From the NCBI GenBank assembly GCA_003647525.1, contig QMMZ01000025.1, forward strand, positions 1 to 11,319: a DNA stretch of 11,319 bases, read 5' to 3'. The stretch comes from Deltaproteobacteria bacterium. Its GTDB lineage: Bacteria > Desulfobacterota > Desulfobacteria > Desulfobacterales > ETH-SRB1. Positions 428-10,544 of the stretch are shown here, in pieces (the first letter of the stretch is position 1; each line of letters begins with the position of its first letter). The notes beneath the pieces were generated by a model. The model had not been told where the DNA came from and did not search any database. It was given only the letters and a program-made list of their open reading frames with translations. A program made the translations under genes and the position numbers.

Positions 428-569
428 CGCTGGACATCCTCAAGTTTAAAAAAAGTTTCAAGGCGTCACCACACGCCATAGAACCAACTTCCCCCATACC
501 ATCAGGATCTTCAATGATGCCAACGTTTCGAGGGTTAAGGGCTCGGAAAATTAGTTGCCCACCTATCAT
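408..569 (-). pseudogene. NifU/IscU scaffold fragment, truncated at both ends
   Basis: In the frame offset from nifS, a 53-codon stretch contains LNPRNVGIIEDPDGMGEVG followed by SMACGDALKLFL (roughly positions 539 down to 444). This is the N-terminal part of the NifU/IscU scaffold, including the first cluster Cys in the CGD motif. The expected first ~20 residues are absent, replaced by MIGGQLIFRA, which is unrelated. After LFLNLR the match is lost and a stop at 410-408 lies inside nifS. The upstream break falls at AGGGCTCGG (538-546 on the plus strand), the same sequence that ends the repeat elements near 6768 and 6948, so an element insertion or deletion probably removed the 5' end. A short translated leader coupled to nifS is an alternative, but no good ribosome site precedes the ATG at 569. 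Confidence 0.72.
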
Positions 570-1897: not shown

Positions 1898-2815
1898 ATG
1901 AAAACGTTCTTAATTTGCCATCGCGGGGCTCTCGGTGATTTTATACTTACATGGCCCGCTATTCTTTGTTTACGAAAAATTTTGCCGGATTATTTTTTTA
2001 AAGGCATTGGCCGCCCGGAATATATGCGTTTAGCCATTAATCTTGGCTTGCTTGATTCATTTATAGACATGGATTCCTCAAGATTGCTTGATCTGTTCAA
2101 TGGAAAAGCAATTCCTCCTGAAATAGGCCATCCAGGCGGAGCCTTACTCTGGCTGTCATCCGGGCAGGGTATCGTTAATCTTCTAAAAAAATATGCTTTG
2201 CTGCCGGTTGTATCAATTGCCCCATTTCCAGCCAGGCGAATGCATGTGGCAGTTTATCACTGTCAATCCATGCAATCCCATTTTCCTGTTAATATTCCTG
2301 AAAATCTTTCTGATTGTTTTCCTCCAAAAACAAAGAAAGGCAATTATGCTTTGATTCATCCTGGAAGCGGAAGCCCCGCCAAAAACTATTCGCCCCGATT
2401 TTATCTTGCTCTTGCTGATGAATTGCAACGTTTAGGATATAAAAAGACAGGGTTTATCGCAGGACCTGCAGAAAAAACAACCATCATGCATGAGAATTTT
2501 ACAGGCAGATGGGTAGAATGGCCGGAAAATGTTGAAAGACTGGCCGACCTGCTTGCCGATGCATCACTCTATATTGGAAATGACTCCGGCGTAAGTCATC
2601 TCGCAGGAATTCTTGGGGTGCCGACAATTGTTTTTTATAAAACCACTGCTCCGGAAGTCTGGGGAGCTCTAGGCAGAAAGGTGGCCCACATTAAAGCCGG
2701 TAATGAAAAATCTGCTTTATACCTCGGAAGGTCACAAATTGCGCTTTTTTCGGTGAGCAATGAGCATCAAGAGCAAGGCGCGAAGACGCGGAATAGCAGG
2801 CTATTGCAAGTCTGA
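1898..2815 (+). CDS. GT9 family glycosyltransferase (heptosyltransferase-like), C-terminus formed by a repeat
   Basis: GT9 enzymes add ADP-heptose or a related sugar to the lipopolysaccharide core on the inner face of the inner membrane. The N-terminus has the family loop RGALGDFILTWPA (9-21). The second Rossmann half begins near IHPGSGSPAKNYS (153-165) and carries the nucleotide-binding signature YIGNDSGVSHLAG (225-237), followed by GVPTIVFY and a Trp-Gly segment. At 305 residues it is slightly short. Homology ends near residue 273; residues 274-305 are encoded by the 160-bp palindromic element at 2718-2877 and are unlike any GT9 tail. The protein may therefore be C-terminally altered yet folded, or decaying. 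No clear ribosome site precedes the ATG, so the start is tentative. There is no LPS gene neighbour. The acceptor cannot be told from sequence. Confidence 0.85.
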   Translation: MKTFLICHRGALGDFILTWPAILCLRKILPDYFFKGIGRPEYMRLAINLGLLDSFIDMDSSRLLDLFNGKAIPPEIGHPGGALLWLSSGQGIVNLLKKYALLPVVSIAPFPARRMHVAVYHCQSMQSHFPVNIPENLSDCFPPKTKKGNYALIHPGSGSPAKNYSPRFYLALADELQRLGYKKTGFIAGPAEKTTIMHENFTGRWVEWPENVERLADLLADASLYIGNDSGVSHLAGILGVPTIVFYKTTAPEVWGALGRKVAHIKAGNEKSALYLGRSQIALFSVSNEHQEQGAKTRNSRLLQV

Positions 2816-2877
2816 GCAACGCTGCTATTGATGTTCATGGCCAGCGAAAAATCGTATTTGTGGCCTTTCGAGGTATA
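2718..2877. repeat. 160-bp long-hairpin element, copy 1
   Basis: The ends are inverted copies: TATACCTCGGAAGGTCACAA on the left, against the reverse complement of the right end, TATACCTCGAAAGGCCACAA. The whole length is an imperfect palindrome with arms of about 79 bp, for example ATGAGCATCAAGAGCA against ATGAACATCAATAGCA. The centre reads GGAATAGCAGGCTATTGC. It shares its sequence nearly end to end with copy 2 at 3304-3464. Its left half lies inside the GT9 reading frame and includes that gene's stop codon. No open frame for a transposase exists, so it is MITE-like or REP-like. Confidence 0.9.
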
Positions 2878-3013
2878 AATAAAGTTCTAAAGCTTCTATC
2901 GCCATAAATTTACAAACTCGTAACGGTTTTTAAAAAATATACATTCTTGACAATTAAAACTCAGATGTGTTTTTTATTTAATAGAGGCAAAAACTTCCCG
3001 ATTTCTGAAATAA

Positions 3014-3202
3014 TTCGAGCTGTGCGGGTAGATAATTCCTGAGCCCTTCCGAATGATCTAATCCTCATCGGCAGGTTCCAGTAGTGGCTGGTTTATCTCG
3101 CCCTATCGATTTGGCGGGCGGCATAAAGCCGCCCCTACGATGTCTCCTTCTAATTATCAACTCATTGACAAAACACGGTAAATCCTACCCGCACAGCTCG
3201 AA
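3014..3202. mobile_element. 189-bp MITE-like element with perfect 18-bp terminal inverted repeats
   Basis: TTCGAGCTGTGCGGGTAG (3014-3031) is exactly inverted at 3185-3202. ATAA flanks both sides (3010-3013 and 3203-3206), consistent with a 4-bp target duplication, although the A/T-rich ends make this uncertain. The interior has no gene but carries a nested hairpin (3081-3138). The small size and lack of coding suggest a non-autonomous element mobilised by a transposase elsewhere. Confidence 0.8.
3081..3138. repeat. GTAGNGGC...GCCNCTAC nested hairpin
   Basis: An imperfect inverted repeat: GTAGTGGCTGGTTTATCTCG on the left mirrors the right arm ending GCCGCCCCTAC. The right arm alone folds as GGGCGGC-ATAAA-GCCGCCC (3116-3134). 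Sequences of the GTAGGGGCGG-TTTAT-CCGCCC type are, to my memory, common dispersed repeats in other bacteria. It is G+C-rich against an AT-rich background. Confidence 0.7.
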
Positions 3203-3210
3203 ATAATTCG

Positions 3211-3541
3211 CCACGGAAGGGCACGGAGTTTCACTGAAAATTGTAAACAATGAGAGGTTACATAAAAATTTGAGCTATAAAATCATAGGTGCAGCACGGA
3301 AAGTATACATCGAAAGGTTGCAAATTGCGTTTTTTTCGGCGAGCAATGAGCATCAAGATCAAGGCGCAAAGGTGCGGAATAGCAGGCTATTGCAAGCCTG
3401 AGCAACGCAGATATTGGTGTTCATGGCCAGCGAAAAACCGCAATTTGTTGCCTTTCGAGGTATATATAAAAAACTTGGTTCTGGTTATAATGTTGAGAAG
3501 AGTATTTTGATAATTCAGTGTAATTCCGTGAAAATCCGTGG
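3211..3541. repeat. Inverted CCACGGA/CACGGA/CACTGAA arms around hairpin copy 2
   Basis: The left arm (3211-3238) and right arm (3514-3541) are 28-base inverted copies matching at 22 positions. The shared blocks are CCACGGA, CACGGA and CACTGAA in order. They enclose hairpin element copy 2. The right arm ends 27 bases before the ATG of the next gene, so the element may carry or disturb its promoter. Confidence 0.65.
3304..3464. repeat. 161-bp long-hairpin element, copy 2
   Basis: Direct-orientation copy of the element at 2718-2877. The inverted ends are TATACATCGAAAGGTTGCAA and, from the other side, TATACCTCGAAAGGCAACAA. They share AAATTGCG and a T-run just inside, and the core GGAATAGCAGGCTATTGCAAG is identical to copy 1 over that stretch. 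Several arm differences between copies are matched on the opposite arm (for example CACAA versus GCAAA-type pairs), which suggests that the folded form matters. Confidence 0.9.
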
Positions 3542-3568
3542 TAAACTTTTACACATAAAGGAAAATGC

Positions 3569-5182
3569 ATGAATAAATTGTCTTTAAGGACATGCGTATC
3601 AACTTCTGGTGAATTTGTTTACGGCATTCACAAGCCCGATTACACAGTTGTCAACCTCAGGGGAAAAGATCACATTACAACTCTTGGACATATTAACGGC
3701 AAAACCGCTGTTGAGAACAAAATTAACTTTCCTGCAAATGATGTAACAATTGATAACGCAGACTGGGTATTTGAAATCTCCAACTCCTTTTCTTTTATGG
3801 GCGCAACTTTTATATTAAAATCAAGCGCTGATAAAAGAATAGAAAATGCGAATCCTTTTGATATTATTAACAAACACGAATCTTCAAAATTAAAAACCAG
3901 TATAAATGAGTTCGAAGACAATGACCCGCTTACTATATCATTGGGCCGAACCTCCACAGACGCAGATTTACTTATCGAGTTAGCCAAAAAGTCGTGCTTG
4001 TTTGAGTTCGATTCACACACAGGAAAGCCTGTTGGCATTCAATATGAAAAGACAAAAAATGGAGAAATCCGACAGGCAATTAAAAACCACCATCTGTTTG
4101 AAATCGTGTCCAACAATACTTTTTTACCTGATACTTATAAGCAGGCTATGGTACTTATCCCCGGCATTCAGGGCCCTAATAAAATTGTGGGAGAGTATAA
4201 AAAGTCTGCCGGCACTCACATCTGGGAATATCTGAGAGAAAACAGCTATATCCCATGGGGACATTATGCAGCAAACATGGCACATGATTCCATCAGGTAT
4301 AAAATCGGAACACTTAAGAAAGAGGATTTGATTGGTCTCAGGCATTTATACTACCAAAGGGTTTACACACAGCTCGCCCAAAGTCTGGGCATTCCCATTC
4401 CCGCAAAAAAACGTACTCTCACAAAAGATGAGCTGGAGTCTTTACGGATACATCTTCTCGAAACCATAAAACATTATGAAAAAGCTAAAAACAATTTGCC
4501 CTTTAATGCATCAATGTGGGGATGGAACTTCGGCTTTGATCTATCTCCTTCAGGATACCGCCTCAATGCCTCTCACCAGCAAATACACCAGCAATTTGCC
4601 ATAGTGCCAACATATATCCCTGGTTTTATCAATGGAAAAAATGATGAAAGCTATACTTTCTTTCCAACCTATACTCAAGGAGATGAAGTATCTCTCTTCT
4701 GCCGGCAGTTCAGAAATAGGACCGGCAAAAACTTCTTTGAAACATACATTAATGCCTTAAAAAATAACAGGAGAATGGATGGCAGAGAAGACAAGGCAAA
4801 AAACCTTATTTTCTATCAAGACGAAAACATCATAGCTTTTGTACCCAAAGCCCAACGCTCTCAAGGAGAAGTACAGATTATGGCCACAGCAAATTGCGGC
4901 AATATTCTTGAGGCGAATTCTACAATGAGAAGGTCTCTGGACATGGCTATTTTGACAACTGTAAGGATGCTGGAAAAATTGGGTGTGGAAATGATGATTT
5001 GTTACGAAACATCCAAGAGGTTTGATAATCCAGACAATGACCAGCGGCTTATGTACACTTTTATTCCACGTCATCCTAAATCGCCAGGGACTTACAGTGA
5101 GTGGCTATATCGCTGGATTATCGGGCATTATCCCGAAGACTTCGCCCATGCCTGTAGTAGGGTTGTTAATCAGAAATTTTAA
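3569..5182 (+). CDS. Uncharacterised 537-aa protein, possibly GalT/HIT-superfamily related
   Basis: I do not recognise a named family. No signal peptide or membrane helix is seen, so it is probably cytosolic. The best clue is NASHQQIHQQFAIVP (333-347): it aligns with the nucleotidyltransferase SxPHPHGQ motif of GalT/HIT proteins, keeping the second His (His340) and final Gln but with Gln for the first His. VPKAQRSQGEVQIM (425-438) resembles the C-terminal GalT-fold strand region. Other notable blocks are WGHYAANMAHDSIRYK (230-245) and a C-terminal RWIIGHYPEDFAHACSRVVN (515-534). A nucleotide-sugar or nucleoside phosphorylase-type reaction is therefore only a suggestion. AAAGGAA at 3557-3563 supports the start. 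The stop TAA shares its last A with the ATG of the next gene, so the two are translated together. Confidence 0.85.
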   Translation: MNKLSLRTCVSTSGEFVYGIHKPDYTVVNLRGKDHITTLGHINGKTAVENKINFPANDVTIDNADWVFEISNSFSFMGATFILKSSADKRIENANPFDIINKHESSKLKTSINEFEDNDPLTISLGRTSTDADLLIELAKKSCLFEFDSHTGKPVGIQYEKTKNGEIRQAIKNHHLFEIVSNNTFLPDTYKQAMVLIPGIQGPNKIVGEYKKSAGTHIWEYLRENSYIPWGHYAANMAHDSIRYKIGTLKKEDLIGLRHLYYQRVYTQLAQSLGIPIPAKKRTLTKDELESLRIHLLETIKHYEKAKNNLPFNASMWGWNFGFDLSPSGYRLNASHQQIHQQFAIVPTYIPGFINGKNDESYTFFPTYTQGDEVSLFCRQFRNRTGKNFFETYINALKNNRRMDGREDKAKNLIFYQDENIIAFVPKAQRSQGEVQIMATANCGNILEANSTMRRSLDMAILTTVRMLEKLGVEMMICYETSKRFDNPDNDQRLMYTFIPRHPKSPGTYSEWLYRWIIGHYPEDFAHACSRVVNQKF

Positions 5183-5628
5183 TGTTTTTTAAAAGGATAA
5201 AACCAGCTGTTCCCAAATATTTGCTTATTGGTCTTGCCGGTCTGATGTGGAGCACCGTGGGCATAATGCTTTGCAGCATGGCTTATTACTGGCTTAAAGA
5301 GGTTGACTGGATAGCTGCTTTCCCATTTGGGCTATTTGGAATCATTTTGTCATTGGCAGCATATCGCTTTGGATTTTCCGGAATCGCTCGAAAAAATATT
5401 GACCGTATCTGTCTGCTCCCTGATAGAGGATGTATTTTCGCTTTTCAGGCATGGAAAAGTTATTTTATCATTGCCTTTATGATTGCACTTGGAATCATTT
5501 TGCGGCATTCCCCTATTCCAAAACACTACCTGGCAATCGTCTATACGACTGTAGGTGGAGCGCTCCTGCTGTCAAGCTTGCACTATTACCGGAAGCTATG
5601 GCGGTTAATAATTCTCAAAAAACCATGA
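5182..5628 (+). CDS. Small four-helix inner-membrane protein, unknown function
   Basis: 148 residues with four predicted transmembrane segments at about 13-35, 43-62, 91-108 and 116-135. A cytoplasmic or periplasmic loop of 28 residues (63-90) includes RKNIDRICLLPDRGCIFAFQAWKSY, cut here as RKNIDRI (70-76) and FAFQAWKSY (86-94). The Arg/Lys-rich tail suggests both ends are cytoplasmic. I know of no function for such proteins. The ATG overlaps the stop of the previous gene by one base (TAATG), and no separate ribosome site is obvious, which points to coupled translation and perhaps physical interaction. The stop overlaps an ATG in another frame (ATGA), which opens a 16-codon frame toward the next gene. 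Confidence 0.85.
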   Translation: MFFKRIKPAVPKYLLIGLAGLMWSTVGIMLCSMAYYWLKEVDWIAAFPFGLFGIILSLAAYRFGFSGIARKNIDRICLLPDRGCIFAFQAWKSYFIIAFMIALGIILRHSPIPKHYLAIVYTTVGGALLLSSLHYYRKLWRLIILKKP

Positions 5629-5675
5629 CAGCCTTCAAAAAAAGGTGGAAGTTAACGCTTACAAAAGAAAATTGA
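5625..5675 (+). CDS. Possible 16-codon linking ORF
   Basis: MTAFKKRWKLTLTKEN begins at an ATGA overlap with the membrane protein stop and ends three bases before the ATG of the cysteine-cluster gene. The peptide is short and basic. Its likely value, if any, is to carry ribosomes across the 50-base gap so that the downstream gene, which has no good ribosome site, is reinitiated. It could equally be chance. Confidence 0.25.
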   Translation: MTAFKKRWKLTLTKEN

Positions 5676-5678
5676 TTA

Positions 5679-6548
5679 ATGTCCTGTCTCAATAATAATG
5701 ATAACCAGGTGCCGGGCGGAATTTACCTTTGCCAGGCCAATAAAGAAATTTCCTGTGGAGCATGCTGCGGTTTATATAATATTGCCGATCCATCGTACGA
5801 ATCTATAATGGAAATTCTTACATGGCGCACCAATACTTTCTCACGCATTAATCGAAATATGGACGATATACTCGCCTTCAAAGAAGAAGTCGAAGATAGA
5901 GAACCACAGAAAAGGCCTTTCCCCGATTTTCATCATTGCCCTTACATCGGTCTGATAGGGGAAGAGCGTTCACGTGTGGGTTGTCTGTTACATCCCCTGC
6001 TTGACGAAAACAAGGGTATAGATTTCAGGGGGCTAAGCTATTACGGAGGCATGGCATGCAGGGTTTACTTCTGTCCAACATACCAACATCTCTCAGCGGC
6101 TTTCAAAGAAATAGTCCGTGAAACGGCAAGTAACTGGTATGCGTACGGACTTGTAATTACTGAAACAAAATTATTAAACACGATTTTTGAAAAACTGGGA
6201 AATTGCCTTAACCGGCCATTAATAAAAAACGACATATTAAAGAATAAAAATACTCTTGAGGCTGTTAGAAAGCTTTTAGATTTAAAGATTAATTGGCCTT
6301 TCAGGCGACGATCATCTTCGGGACCAACAAATTATTTTTTTGAAGACCGGCTTTATTCCAGGCCCCCTGTAAATTATGAAACAATCGGGAAGCCTGTATC
6401 CAGGCATGACACCATATTACAAGAGTTGGAATCTCACTTTAATTCAGCAAATGAATTACATGCGGCTGAAAATCTAATTGACGGATTAATTAATAAAGTA
6501 GCATCAAATTTAAATCCTGAATATCCTGTTCATCCTGTCCAAAAATAA
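5679..6548 (+). CDS. Cysteine-cluster (CxxCC-type) metal-binding protein, unknown function
   Basis: 289 residues, soluble. Cysteines are grouped as SCGACC (25-30), HHCPYIG (Cys87), VGCLLHP (Cys102) and MACRVYFCPTY (Cys127, Cys132). This spacing is like the YkgJ/UPF0153 type CxxCC domain thought to bind zinc or an iron-sulfur cluster. The part after about 140 is helical and without clear motifs; charge-rich RRRSSSGPTN lies near 209-218. A TGA lies in frame two codons before the ATG, so this is the first possible start, though only weak purine-rich sequence precedes it. It is third in the cluster. Its last 11 residues (NPEYPVHPVQK) are encoded by a 9-bp triplicate repeat at 6514-6540 and are probably not ancestral. 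A metal site is likely; the metal and role are unknown. Confidence 0.85.
   Translation: MSCLNNNDNQVPGGIYLCQANKEISCGACCGLYNIADPSYESIMEILTWRTNTFSRINRNMDDILAFKEEVEDREPQKRPFPDFHHCPYIGLIGEERSRVGCLLHPLLDENKGIDFRGLSYYGGMACRVYFCPTYQHLSAAFKEIVRETASNWYAYGLVITETKLLNTIFEKLGNCLNRPLIKNDILKNKNTLEAVRKLLDLKINWPFRRRSSSGPTNYFFEDRLYSRPPVNYETIGKPVSRHDTILQELESHFNSANELHAAENLIDGLINKVASNLNPEYPVHPVQK
6514..6540 (+). repeat. 9-bp ATCCTGNNN repeat, three units, at a gene end
   Basis: ATCCTGAAT, ATCCTGTTC and ATCCTGTCC follow head to tail. Repeats of the type ATCCTGTTAATCCTGTC are, as I remember, widespread in intergenic DNA of many bacteria. Here the frame runs through them, giving a Pro-every-third-residue tail before the TAA at 6546. 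Confidence 0.75.
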
Positions 6549-6767
6549 TATTTAACAGCGCTAAACGATAGTGTTACGCCTTGTTCGCTCCTGATAGTGG
6601 CTCCCTCCATATCTGTTAGCTGCTTCGCATTCCTGAAGGAGGCACTCGGGTTGCTATGCGATGCGCGATGCCTGTCTAAAATATGCCACGCATCCGGTGC
6701 GGGAGTACCTTTTTTGGCAACTGCCAATGAACGTAAATTCAAAATAGCATTTCTCGATATCGGTCTT
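6549..6767. other. Gene-free or decayed segment upstream of hairpin copy 3
   Basis: More G+C-rich than its surroundings. The only long open frame is on minus (6802 to 6530), with text such as GTPAPDAWHILDRHRAS and EGATIRSEQGVTLSF. It begins inside the TIR of hairpin copy 3 and ends inside the cysteine-cluster gene, with no ribosome site. It may be a relic of another repeat or a short coding fragment. I cannot support a gene. A small hairpin TTGGCAACTGCCAA lies at about 6714-6727. The whole gap to 7378 is otherwise occupied by copies 3 and 4 and a promoter. Confidence 0.4.
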
Positions 6768-6948
6768 AGGGCTCGGTAAAAAATAACTTGGCATTTTTGC
6801 ATCCCAACTTCACCATATCTTCAATCGATTTTTATTCGCAAAAGTCCTCGAAATAGCTCGCTATTCCTGCGGTTTTGCTCAATCAGATCGATTAAATCTA
6901 CGGCAAATTTGGGCGCAAATTCTACCAAGTTATTTTTTACCGAGCCCT
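6768..6948. repeat. 181-bp long-hairpin element, copy 3, with perfect 24-bp ends
   Basis: The 24-base end at 6768-6791 (beginning AGGGCTCGGTAAAAAATAAC) is exactly inverted at 6925-6948. TTA on both sides (6766-6768, 6948-6950) could be a target duplication that overlaps the end. Inside, nested arms AATCGA/TCGATT and GCAAAA/TTTTGC close on the core GAATAGCGAGCTATT (minus strand). It has no coding capacity. Confidence 0.9.
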
Positions 6949-7033
6949 TATCCTATTCTGCAGTTAGCAAATCGGCAAGCCGTTGATGCAAAAGACAGTC
7001 TTGCAAAAAAAATGAAAATGGTATACTTGGCTT

Positions 7034-7193
7034 GGAGTTCGCTCAAAAATAAATTTACATTTTCAGGGGTTGAGGCGCACGCATGGCAAGGCGCGAGGAG
7101 GGCGAATAGCAAGAGCTATTTAACCAACGAGCAACGCAGCCATGCGGGATGGATCGGCGCATCAAAATGTGAAGTTATTTTTGAGCGAGCCCT
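7034..7193. repeat. 160-bp long-hairpin element, copy 4
   Basis: The left end GGAGTTCGCTCAAAAATAAA (7034-7053) and the right end read from the other strand, AGGGCTCGCTCAAAAATAAC, are inverted, both continuing to ACATTTT. The inner arms pair over GCATGGC. The centre CAAGGCGCGAGGAGGGCGAA-TAGC...GAGCTATT and GAGCAACGCAGC match the cores of copies 1 and 2, while the ends match copy 3. It therefore links the two kinds into one family. Confidence 0.88.
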
Positions 7194-7228
7194 TAGGTAT
7201 AAGTACAAGAATATCAAATGGTTTTTTA

Positions 7229-7257
7229 TTGACCATGTTTGCTTTCTTTGGTATTCT
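7229..7257 (+). promoter_or_regulatory. Sigma-70-type promoter candidate for the Met-rich protein/cyclase unit
   Basis: TTGACC (7229-7234) and TATTCT (7252-7257) are 17 bases apart. A full TATAAT at 7259-7264 follows but is too far from the TTGACC box. The start of transcription would fall near 7264, leaving a leader of about 115 bases before the ATG at 7379. Confidence 0.45.
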
Positions 7258-7367
7258 TTATAATATAAAATTCACCAGCGGTCGGTTTGTTTCATAAAGG
7301 TGTTACATGGAAATGAGTTTGTAAATTTCTGATTACCGCAAATACAGAATTGTTACCATACAAATTT

Positions 7368-7953: not shown

Positions 7954-10533
7954 ATGAAATTTGAAGATTGGATGAGGAAAAACTACTTAAACGGTAAGCA
8001 TTTGCATTATAAGCTCACTATAATATTTGCTCTTTTTTTTCTGTTTCCTGTCTTGGGGTTTGTTACATTTGGAATTAAATATAACTTAATGAATGACCAA
8101 TATGTTTTGGTGTTTTTTCTGGGCGTTCTTATTTTTTCATTGTTAGGATATACCATGCTAAGGAAGTTATTTGGTGAAATAGAGGATATATCCAGAAATA
8201 TTTCTCGGAAAGGCATTGAACAATTTGGAGGAGAGTTGCAGACGGGCACGGGCACGGGCACGGATGAAATACGCAACATTGTTCAGTCTTTTAACGCGAT
8301 TGAGAATCAATTCAGCAAAACTTTCCTGCAACTTCAAAAGAAGTCTTCTGAAATATCAATACTAAAGGAGCTTTCCGAGCTTTGCTATGTTACATTTGAT
8401 CCAACTGAAATTCTTTACGTTACTCTGGAGCGTTCTTTGGCATTAACTGATTCAGACGTTGGTTCAGTCATAGTTACAGCTCGTGATCGCAGATCGTTTG
8501 TTGTTAAGGCAACTATTGGAGCAGGGGAATACGTTAAGATAGATGACAGGATAGATTTTAATACAAGCATTGCCAAGTATGCTGTAATCAATAAATCGCC
8601 TATTGTGGTAGAAGATGTTGAAAAGGATACCAGGTTCGCAAGGGCGAACCGTCCTCTATATTGCTCGAAATCCTTTGTTTGCATGCCGATCAAGACCAGT
8701 AAAGATATTGTTGGAGTGCTAACAATTTCGCGTAGAAATGGTAATAAAATTTATTCACACGACGATGTGGAGATTCTAACGCCCCTTTTGAGTAATGCTG
8801 CTTTCACATATGAAAACCTCCGTCTTTTGAAGGATAATGAAAATGGAGAACTCGTCCTGAAGACAGTTGAGAAAATCTTCAAGATAATAAACTCAAGTTT
8901 TAGAGACAGCGAACTTTTACATGCTATTTTTAATGAAATTTATGCTGTAGTTCCTTTTAATCTTGCCATGGTTATGACCGTGGTTGAAAAAGCTCCTGGT
9001 TATATTTCGATTTTTGAGTTGCTGGCTAATGAGCAGACAAACATTTCAAGGGGCGTTCAATATTCCATTTCGCAGGGCGATATAATTGACAAGGCGCTTA
9101 AACAGAAATCCATTCTGATTGTGGATGATACTGACGTACTTACCAGTGAGTGTGCAAAGGAATTATTTGTAAACCAGGGAAGCAAATCATGCTGTCTTGT
9201 CCCCATGAAGATGAGAGGGGTTGTTAAAGGGATATTTGCGCTATCTTCAAGTCATGCAAAAGACTTTCATGATTCTCAGGAGCTAATTGAATGGATGGCA
9301 AACGCGCTTTCTATTGCCATAGAGCGCAACAAGTTGTCTGAATCTGTTATTAAACGCAATAAAGAATTGGATTCGATCAAACAAATCGGAAGCGCCCTTG
9401 CTTCATCGACTTTTGATATGGATCAGGTCCTTAAATATACAATGGACATGATTCGGGAAGTTATGAATGTTGAAGCAGGCTCCCTTTATCTTGTAGATGG
9501 AAAAGAGCTTGAGTTTGCTGTTGCATTTAATATCAAACTTGAATTTCTGAAAGATCTGAAAGACCTGCGACTTAAAATGGGTCAGGGAATTGCCGGTTAT
9601 GTGGCGGCACGGGGGGAATCTGTTATTATAAATGATGTACGGAAGTCACCGCATTTCTATCCTGAAATAGATAAAGCTACAGGTTTTAAGACGTTATCAG
9701 CATTGTGTGTGCCGATGATTTCCCAGGGAAAGGTAATTGGAGTCCTCGAAGTACTCAATAAAATAAACGGCGATTTTGGCTCTAATGATGAAGATCTACT
9801 GCAGTCAATAGCATCATCGGTAAGCATTGCCATTGAAAATGCTCGTCTTTACAAGGAAACAGTTTCATTGGCCGAACATGAGCGCGGTATAAGGAGTGTG
9901 TTTCAGAAATTTGTACCCAAGGAAATAGTTGATAAGATTGTCTATGGCACGGAAACAGGAGGGGAAATGCTTGAGGAGGTAAAGACTCTTACCTTGCTGA
10001 ATATTGATATCAGGGAATTTTCAAGTATTTTAAGAGAAATCGGTTCTCAAAAAACGGTTCCTCTGCTTAATTATTTCTTTTCCGTTATGGGGGGCATGGT
10101 GTTCAAACATCATGGTATTGTTGATAAATATCTGGGTGATGGGCTGCTGGCGCTTTTTGGAGCGCCTGTTTCAAGCATAATGGACGCGGATAATGCTGTG
10201 CAGGCGGCGCTTGAAATGAAGAACTTGGTTGCAACTGTAAATGAGTATTTTGCCAGGGAATTTGGCGTTTCCCTGAGTATAGGTATTAGCGTTCATACAG
10301 GCGAGGTCGTTGTAGGCAGCTTTGGCTTTGAGATGAAAATGGATTATACGGTTATCGGCGATTCTGTAAATGATGTATTTAAGCTTCAGGAGCTTACCAA
10401 ATCCATTCCGAACAGTATTTTAATCAGTGAGAAAACCTGCCATTCCGCACGGTTCAACCTGGAACTGCGTGATATTGATGCCACACTCAGCGATATGAAA
10501 ATATACGAACTGCTGGGCTATAACCCCAATTGA
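7954..10533 (+). CDS. Membrane sensor adenylate cyclase: 2 TM - HAMP - 3 GAF - class III cyclase
   Basis: 859 residues. Two membrane helices (about 20-41 and 48-69) are joined by a very short loop, so there is no large outer sensor. A HAMP-like stretch (70-120, with DEIRNIVQSFNAI) and a coiled coil follow. Three GAF domains (about 140-290, 305-460, 470-632) precede the class III cyclase domain (about 645-855). The metal Asp residues are Asp685 (NIDIREFS) and Asp729 (KYLGDGLLALFG). Lys725 and Asp797 (MDYTVIGDSVN) are the ATP-selecting pair, so the product should be cAMP. Asn806 of the transition-state pair is present, but the usual Arg is Lys810 (VNDVFKLQ). The start is supported by AAGAGGG at 7939-7945. 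The stop codon overlaps a repeat end (ACCGAGCCCTTA, 10533-10544). GAF ligands (cNMP, small molecules, redox) cannot be predicted. Confidence 0.95.
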   Translation: MKFEDWMRKNYLNGKHLHYKLTIIFALFFLFPVLGFVTFGIKYNLMNDQYVLVFFLGVLIFSLLGYTMLRKLFGEIEDISRNISRKGIEQFGGELQTGTGTGTDEIRNIVQSFNAIENQFSKTFLQLQKKSSEISILKELSELCYVTFDPTEILYVTLERSLALTDSDVGSVIVTARDRRSFVVKATIGAGEYVKIDDRIDFNTSIAKYAVINKSPIVVEDVEKDTRFARANRPLYCSKSFVCMPIKTSKDIVGVLTISRRNGNKIYSHDDVEILTPLLSNAAFTYENLRLLKDNENGELVLKTVEKIFKIINSSFRDSELLHAIFNEIYAVVPFNLAMVMTVVEKAPGYISIFELLANEQTNISRGVQYSISQGDIIDKALKQKSILIVDDTDVLTSECAKELFVNQGSKSCCLVPMKMRGVVKGIFALSSSHAKDFHDSQELIEWMANALSIAIERNKLSESVIKRNKELDSIKQIGSALASSTFDMDQVLKYTMDMIREVMNVEAGSLYLVDGKELEFAVAFNIKLEFLKDLKDLRLKMGQGIAGYVAARGESVIINDVRKSPHFYPEIDKATGFKTLSALCVPMISQGKVIGVLEVLNKINGDFGSNDEDLLQSIASSVSIAIENARLYKETVSLAEHERGIRSVFQKFVPKEIVDKIVYGTETGGEMLEEVKTLTLLNIDIREFSSILREIGSQKTVPLLNYFFSVMGGMVFKHHGIVDKYLGDGLLALFGAPVSSIMDADNAVQAALEMKNLVATVNEYFAREFGVSLSIGISVHTGEVVVGSFGFEMKMDYTVIGDSVNDVFKLQELTKSIPNSILISEKTCHSARFNLELRDIDATLSDMKIYELLGYNPN
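8242..8263 (+). repeat. In-frame 6-bp tandem repeat in the HAMP region of the cyclase
   Basis: ACGGGC is repeated about 3.7 times and encodes alternating Thr-Gly (residues 97-103). Gain or loss of a unit would change the linker by two residues without shifting the frame. It interrupts the HAMP connector just before the DEIRN helix. Confidence 0.8.
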
Positions 10534-10544
10534 CCGAGCCCTTA
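10533..10544. repeat. Solo GGGCTCGG-type repeat end at the cyclase stop
   Basis: ACCGAGCCCTTA is identical to the outer end of hairpin copy 3 at 6939-6950 and close to copy 4. No partner arm is found nearby. It begins at the last base of the cyclase stop codon, so it is a solo end or a remnant left after excision. Confidence 0.6.

Follow-up and report, generated by a model that had tools for sequence, protein, structure and literature searches.

What are four long hairpins with different arms and one common centre doing within a few kilobases of a bacterial genome, and does anything act on their folded form? The window, by which we mean the whole stretch of DNA analysed, is 11,319 nucleotides long (contig QMMZ01000025.1, assembly GCA_003647525.1) and comes from a deltaproteobacterium of the lineage ETH-SRB1 in the Desulfobacterales; the hairpins are called E1 to E4 here. 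A preliminary description, made from the letters of the window, had taken them for palindromes of 160–181 bp and proposed selection on the folded DNA or RNA, for example in miniature inverted-repeat transposable elements (MITEs) mobilized by a hairpin-recognizing transposase. Comparison with related genomes indicates that E1–E4 are mobile elements, probably non-autonomous hairpin transposons, that is MITEs, of one superfamily in which ends and tip are exchangeable, and suggests selection on the folded sense strand, as RNA or single-stranded DNA, in the lineages that spread. A superfamily of hairpin MITEs is a known kind of thing; its one-strand folding property is new and testable. The elements and their flanks are as follows.

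2720–2875, plus strand (tip-sense): E1, a family A hairpin element of 156 bp
2718–2719 and 2876–2877: left and right copies of the TA target duplication of E1, read against the corresponding site in the genome G001
3306–3462, plus strand: E2, a family A hairpin element of 157 bp, within an older dispersed repeat at about 3207–3552
3304–3305 and 3463–3464: left and right copies of the TA duplication of E2
6769–6947, minus strand (tip-sense): E3, a family B hairpin element of 179 bp
6766–6768 and 6948–6950: left and right copies of the TTA duplication of E3
7035–7192, plus strand: E4, a family C hairpin element of 158 bp, with B-like ends, an A-like tip and a decayed left end
7032–7034 (TTG) and 7193–7195 (TTA): flanks of E4, an inexact duplication

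All four imperfect palindromes lie where the preliminary description had placed them, and they fold far below their shuffles: the RNA fold energies of the plus strand are −84, −71, −68 and −74 kcal/mol for E1, E2, E3 and E4, against means of −41, −39, −30 and −41 kcal/mol for 100 letter shuffles of each. Their lengths come to 156, 157, 179 and 158 bp once the target duplications are removed, and are thus shorter than first reported. The core AATAGC-N2/4-GCTATT is indeed the centre of all four, on the minus strand in E3. Of two further sequences ascribed to E1, E2 and E4, GAGCAACGC is present in all three, and CAAGGCGCGA occurs unaltered in E1 and E4 and with one change in E2 (CAAGGCGCAA). E4 had been thought to join both types of end; instead, both of its ends are of the B/C type (the left decayed to GAGTTCGC, the right GCGAGCCC), and its tip alone is of the A type.

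Four families, A (about 157 bp), B (179 bp), C (156–158 bp) and D (180 bp), have in common an oriented tip, GGAATAGC-RR-GCTATT, and differ in arms and ends, with family C combining B-like ends and an A-like tip. An autonomous partner with a TNA duplication would be expected to carry ends like GGGCTCGG or GGAACGTGG. Elements of about 120 bp in the genome G054 (L404–L407) carry D ends around an unrelated palindromic interior such as GGAGTGCAAACTTCAGTTTGC. As in MITEs generally, the elements are short (156–180 bp), hold no transposase gene and have arms that are complementary end to end.

The elements are dispersed in high number. G001, the nearest genome compared (42% of the sampled 31-letter words of the window in common), holds 25 near-full family A copies at 90–99% identity to E1 and at least 33 near-full family B copies at 92–97% identity to E3, plus one at 87%, the counts with E3 being lower bounds with 40 of 178 candidates scored. 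Searching this genome with the core gave 57 matches to GAATAGCN{1,6}GCTATT against 1 for the reversed control, and the 15-base tip GAATAGCRRGCTATT occurs in 349 copies in one congener against 0 in the control. The distribution of this tip is patchy: it was found in 21 of 76 relatives, the genomes of the genus that are richest in it holding 349, 105, 62 and 55 copies and one from another family (G062) holding 46, and the exact 20-base B/D tip was present in only 3 of 395 genomes sampled from the phylum (G001; G146, 7 copies; G461, 1 copy). Among the matches listed, the other tip-bearing records are mostly metagenome-assembled genomes of Desulfobacterales or Deltaproteobacteria. The same tip stands on more distant arms in G025, where the ends are like GTGTCYGYCYACAARTGG, and in a Rhodobacteraceae record (L319) and a Pseudoalteromonas record (L286). 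Tip matches were also seen in records named Rhodobacteraceae, Pseudoalteromonas and Verrucomicrobia (L319, L286, L284, L290 and L317), some of them inside long palindromes. With hundreds of tips in one genome, the system is densely sampled for finding the partner enzyme.

Mobility of the MITE kind, which the preliminary description had put forward, is seen in copies at many sites, in target duplications and in empty sites. The site of E1 is empty in G001, which reads CTGCTT-TG-AATAAAG where the window reads CTGCTT-TA(element)TA-AATAAAG, the TG in place of TA being a difference between the two genomes; the repeat that hosts E2 is uninterrupted at C56 of G001 (AAG-TA-TATAAAGAACTTGG); and a family A copy at C59 of G001 has its empty site, GTGT-TA-CATG, in the window at 7304–7305. 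From these three comparisons, one of them with TG for TA, family A makes a 2-bp TA duplication, and the flanks are TA/TA in 33 of 34 family A elements. Families B, C and D depart from this pattern and duplicate 3 bp, mostly TTA or TAA. Their flank triplets are identical in 85 of 109 D pairs and 67 of 77 B/C pairs, whereas the triplets one step further out agree in 1 of 109 and 0 of 77, and the 152 identical cases among the 186 comprise 146 TAA or TTA, 1 TCA or TGA and 5 others. This 3-bp TNA duplication resembles insertion of the IS5/IS1031 or Harbinger type; the TA duplication of family A resembles that of IS630 or IS5/IS427.

The middle base of the duplication further constrains how the elements enter DNA. 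Across 119 of the 140 B, C and D elements, those with TTA or TAA flanks (the other 21 have other flanks and stand outside this count), it is concordant at both ends in 112 and discordant in 7, and, read relative to the tip, TTA (59) and TAA (53) occur about equally often. Both results fit staggered insertion of double-stranded DNA, in either direction. HUH/Y1 transposases are not known to duplicate their target, and the hairpin-recognizing enzyme of the preliminary description does not fit the duplications observed.

Copies also occur in reduced form. Among 14 G001 loci with B ends that were opened, a lone end remains at 11 and a short palindrome at 3 (42 bp at L147, 70 bp at L142 and a similar one at L137), and in the genome G065 there are 68 matches to the D end (at most 3 mismatches; control, 1) against 12 tips. 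Two short stretches of the window may be solo ends; G001 has solo ends of greater length.

539–551, plus strand: possible solo B-type end, TAA-GGGCTCGGAAAAT; short and tentative
10533–10541, minus strand: possible solo B-type end, ACCGAGCCC-TTA, adjoining the stop codon of a GAF/cyclase gene; short and tentative

Across genomes the arms covary. In an alignment of 40 diverse B and D elements (from 58 references: 20 of 21 B and 20 of 37 D), double changes that preserve pairing occur at 27 of 55 consensus pairs, and 96.4% of cells are paired, compared with a shuffle mean of 85.1% and at most 51.9% in slid versions; none of 500 shuffles, which leave the relatedness among elements in place, reaches the observed value on any of five measures. 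Family A shows double changes at 5 of 62 pairs (10 sequences). Unpaired consensus columns persist across elements. The resemblance was to count as limited to this locus if genome-wide copies had neither covariation nor common ends and core, and all of these are present.

Folding is, moreover, better on one strand than on the other. We collected 174 elements in which both ends were recognized (no more than 1 mismatch per end motif) and the central tip carried 2 mismatches or fewer, partial and decayed copies being excluded. The strand comparison covered 167 distinct elements. In 167 of 167 under RNA parameters, and in 166 of 167 under DNA parameters, the tip-sense strand gives the better fold of the two, an advantage to which G·U pairs on the tip-sense strand contribute. 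Single-side changes at Watson–Crick columns leave either a G·U or an A·C mismatch, and the balance between the two shifts with the number of copies that carry the mismatch: it is 39:39 for mismatches private to one copy, 36:22 for those in 2–3 copies (p = 0.09) and 26:8 for those in 4 or more (p = 0.003), and 27 G·U stand against 6 A·C among fixed (consensus) mismatches. Shared and fixed mismatches taken together differ from private ones (Fisher p = 0.003), and a smaller earlier test on 87 sequences agrees (private, 36:31; shared, 30:10; fixed, 22:3). A mutational strand bias in the source copies is contradicted, because unpaired columns show no such excess: their shared changes comprise 11 C>T/A>G and 20 G>A/T>C, a balance that differs from that of paired columns (Fisher p = 3e-4). 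On balance, these counts, which come from elements with common ancestry, make it likely that inserted copies drift freely and that multiplying lineages have kept the sense strand foldable. The selection on the folded form that had been proposed is upheld in a sharper version, in that it appears specific to one strand, which is not expected of elements with the insertion mode described above.

Candidate transposase genes were sought with four Pfam families. In 8 congeners there were 11 matches to PF13358, 32 to PF01609 and 60 to PF01797, and in 16 family genomes 2 to PF13586. Ends of the A, B and D types were looked for in loci L149–L219, L409 and L410, and inverted ends of any kind in L149–L189; 30 of these loci were for PF01797, about half of the 60 Y1 matches having no locus to scan, and one (L217) stops at a contig end. 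In these searches, no transposase gene was convincingly bracketed by element ends, and the full-length, transposase-bearing element that the preliminary description had envisaged was not convincingly found among the four Pfam families or the long end pairs. Its nearest approach is L212, in G002, the only scanned locus with ends on both sides; an end on one side only was seen at L195, L208, L217, L409 and a few others. At L212, D-type ends at 1310 and 2759, each with TAA on its outer side, enclose a Y1 gene (PF01797, E = 1e-16); TAA at both ends is an agreement expected half the time. The Y1 unit has inverted ends of its own (GGGGTCAAGTCTGTTCTTGA). Because the right end, with 4 mismatches in 22, is preceded by about 260 bp of other DNA, the locus looks like a chance arrangement: a Y1 unit that landed in a truncated D element, with a solo end unrelated to it nearby. 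Y1 units at L212 and L195 have ends like GGGGTCAAGTCTG or GGGGTCAGGTCTTCATTC and lie inside or beside D-type ends.

Among end pairs in the 2.1 Mb of DNA covered (overlapping loci counted), no convincing autonomous insertion sequence was seen. There are 11 long end pairs, of which five span 223–557 bp and six were opened by listing their open reading frames. As possible partners we set aside L381, which holds a radical-SAM gene; L232 and L389, with genes that look host-like by eye; L223, with a 473-aa frame that has no Pfam match; and L386 (56–1331), a D element interrupted by about 1.1 kb that includes a PIN-domain open reading frame (PF01850), with an 11-bp repeat, GCGCACAGATT, on either side. 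In the sixth, L227, the left end of the pair is a mini D element of 30 bp at 7110–7139 (GGAACGTGG...CCACATTCC), which has TAA on each flank and lies in frame within a reading frame that resembles a DDE transposase by eye and has no Pfam match; we read this frame as a target of the element, not as its source.

The explanation that we favour, and hold to be more likely than not, is that a DDE-type transposase supplied in trans would insert the double-stranded element, and that a folded tip-sense single strand, RNA or single-stranded DNA, would be required for a copy to become a source, with the outcome that only well-folding lineages would multiply; after insertion, copies would decay unconstrained as they accumulate point mutations, lose the centre of the hairpin and shrink to single ends. 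To a bolder version we give a probability of roughly one in four: a target-duplicating, DDE-type mini-transposon for whose amplification a hairpin of one specific strand with the conserved tip would be obligatory, the tip being found on elements with different ends and duplication lengths. Several points weigh against the favoured explanation. Mismatches in 2–3 copies are not significant as a class alone. All six fixed A·C pairs are in families A (6 G·U, 3 A·C) and C (7 and 3), and B and D are the only families to show the G·U effect without exception (7:0 each). Members of a family are related by descent, so that shared variants are not independent, and there is partial homology among the fixed G·U pairs in B, C and D. 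Duplication lengths differ between A and B–D, so that one enzyme may not serve all, and the search for a bracketed transposase gene in the four Pfam families was negative.

A further difficulty is that template-switch correction of quasi-palindromes could give compensatory changes without selection. The elements could then be ordinary double-stranded MITEs whose arms are kept complementary by such correction during replication, with no function for a folded strand, and the palindromes deleted to 42 and 70 bp, together with the 11 single ends among 14 G001 loci, indicate that the hairpins are unstable. We regard this explanation as unlikely: correction in dispersed copies would be blind to tip-sense and antisense, yet the shared mismatches are G·U rather than A·C, and on one strand only, the tip-sense strand folds better in every one of the 167 elements and unpaired consensus columns persist. 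The elements could also be REPIN-like, with REP-associated tyrosine (Y1) transposases moving them in the form of single-stranded hairpins. Strand-specific hairpins, compensatory changes and solo remnants do resemble REPINs as the passages available from PMC3116915 describe them. Y1 genes occur in 8 of 8 congeners, the one at L212 between TAA-flanked D-type ends, and in G065 10 of 12 tips lie on the lagging strand inferred from GC skew sampled at 20 places (p = 0.04), although four of the ten are clustered and the excess falls to 7 versus 2 (p = 0.18) if the cluster is counted once. This excess favours a single-stranded DNA form weakly. Against a Y1 mechanism stand the 3-bp duplications, whose middle base agrees at the two ends and in which TTA and TAA are about equally frequent relative to the tip; L212 looks like chance and none of the 29 other scanned Y1 loci has ends on both sides; we therefore hold REPIN-like elements to be improbable.

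Orientation relative to genes leans the other way, to an RNA form. Where an element lies between tandem genes, its tip-sense strand runs in the same direction as the genes in 56 cases versus 29 (p = 0.0045). Across the 174 elements, the upstream gene has the direction of the tip-sense strand in 81 cases versus 74 and the downstream gene in 101 versus 55 (p = 0.0003), but only the tandem class informs orientation, because the downstream count mixes in an effect of place, with 35 elements between divergent genes and 17 between convergent ones. The tandem bias would also fit dispersed RNA elements kept by the host, such as processing or stability hairpins whose strand bias reflects a function in mRNA at each site, and ERIC and NEMIS hairpins do act in mRNA, ERIC in an orientation-dependent manner, according to excerpts of PMC2229807. 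This explanation seems very improbable to us: private changes show no G·U preference, which indicates that individual inserted copies are not visibly constrained, and no Rfam match was found in the window at gathering scores or in 2600–7300 at E values up to 1. If the strand effect behind the favoured proposal holds, it would suggest that a folded single strand, for which standard cut-and-paste models have no need, is used by some mini-transposons that duplicate their target, and setting private against shared and G·U against A·C changes becomes a simple genomic test for a folded-strand need in the multiplication of hairpin elements.

Among known systems, Tourist-like MITEs, served by PIF/Harbinger or IS5/IS1031 transposases, have a 3-bp TWA/TNA duplication and G-rich ends; the elements here are alike in both, a likeness that rests on the duplication only, and differ in that no transposase was found in the four Pfam families searched. 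ERIC/RU-1, RUP and Correia/NEMIS are gene-less, shorter than 200 bp and transcribed into long stem-loops, with TA ends and a TA duplication, and RUP is linked to IS630-Spn1 (passages of PMC2229807). Family A fits this plan, whereas B, C and D duplicate TNA and several arm families here stand under one oriented tip; a one-strand fold constraint in spreading lineages is not mentioned for these MITEs in those passages. REPINs, in the excerpts of PMC3116915, are hairpins with compensatory arm changes that are dispersed in extragenic space and leave solo remnants, as the present elements do, but here there are target duplications, the tip is common while the ends differ and no RAYT gene is convincingly bracketed. 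The QMITEs of Coxiella and the Chunjie MITE of Geobacter uraniireducens, compared by description and not by sequence, are of similar size (about 190–235 bp), and the QMITE2 transcript likewise folds into a long stem-loop; QMITE2 has direct repeats of 7–9 bp, unlike the 2- or 3-bp duplications here (passages of PMC10969869). A literature survey by titles, abstract openings and passages brought no description of the present elements to notice, which is no proof of absence.

Within the window, E1 sits in the 3′ end of a glycosyltransferase-9 gene (1898–2815) and replaces its last codons: the G001 version of the protein ends EKSALNKVLKLLSS, and the window version continues into residues encoded by E1. 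The older dispersed repeat that hosts E2 (about 3207–3552) has ends like CACCACGGA...TCCGTGGT and resembles what we take to be a decayed GxxExxY-type frame. A distinct 183-bp element at 3017–3199 (GAGCTGTGCGGGTAG...CTACCCGCACAGCTC) is flanked by a 10-bp duplication, GAAATAATTC, at 3007–3016 and 3200–3209; its site is empty at C67 of G001, and similar DNA occurs at C1 and C25. Finally, the block that contains E3 and E4 (6494–7200) lies at a synteny break between C67 and C59 of G001, and a C-type element end lies right after the break in C67, which suggests a rearrangement between element copies.

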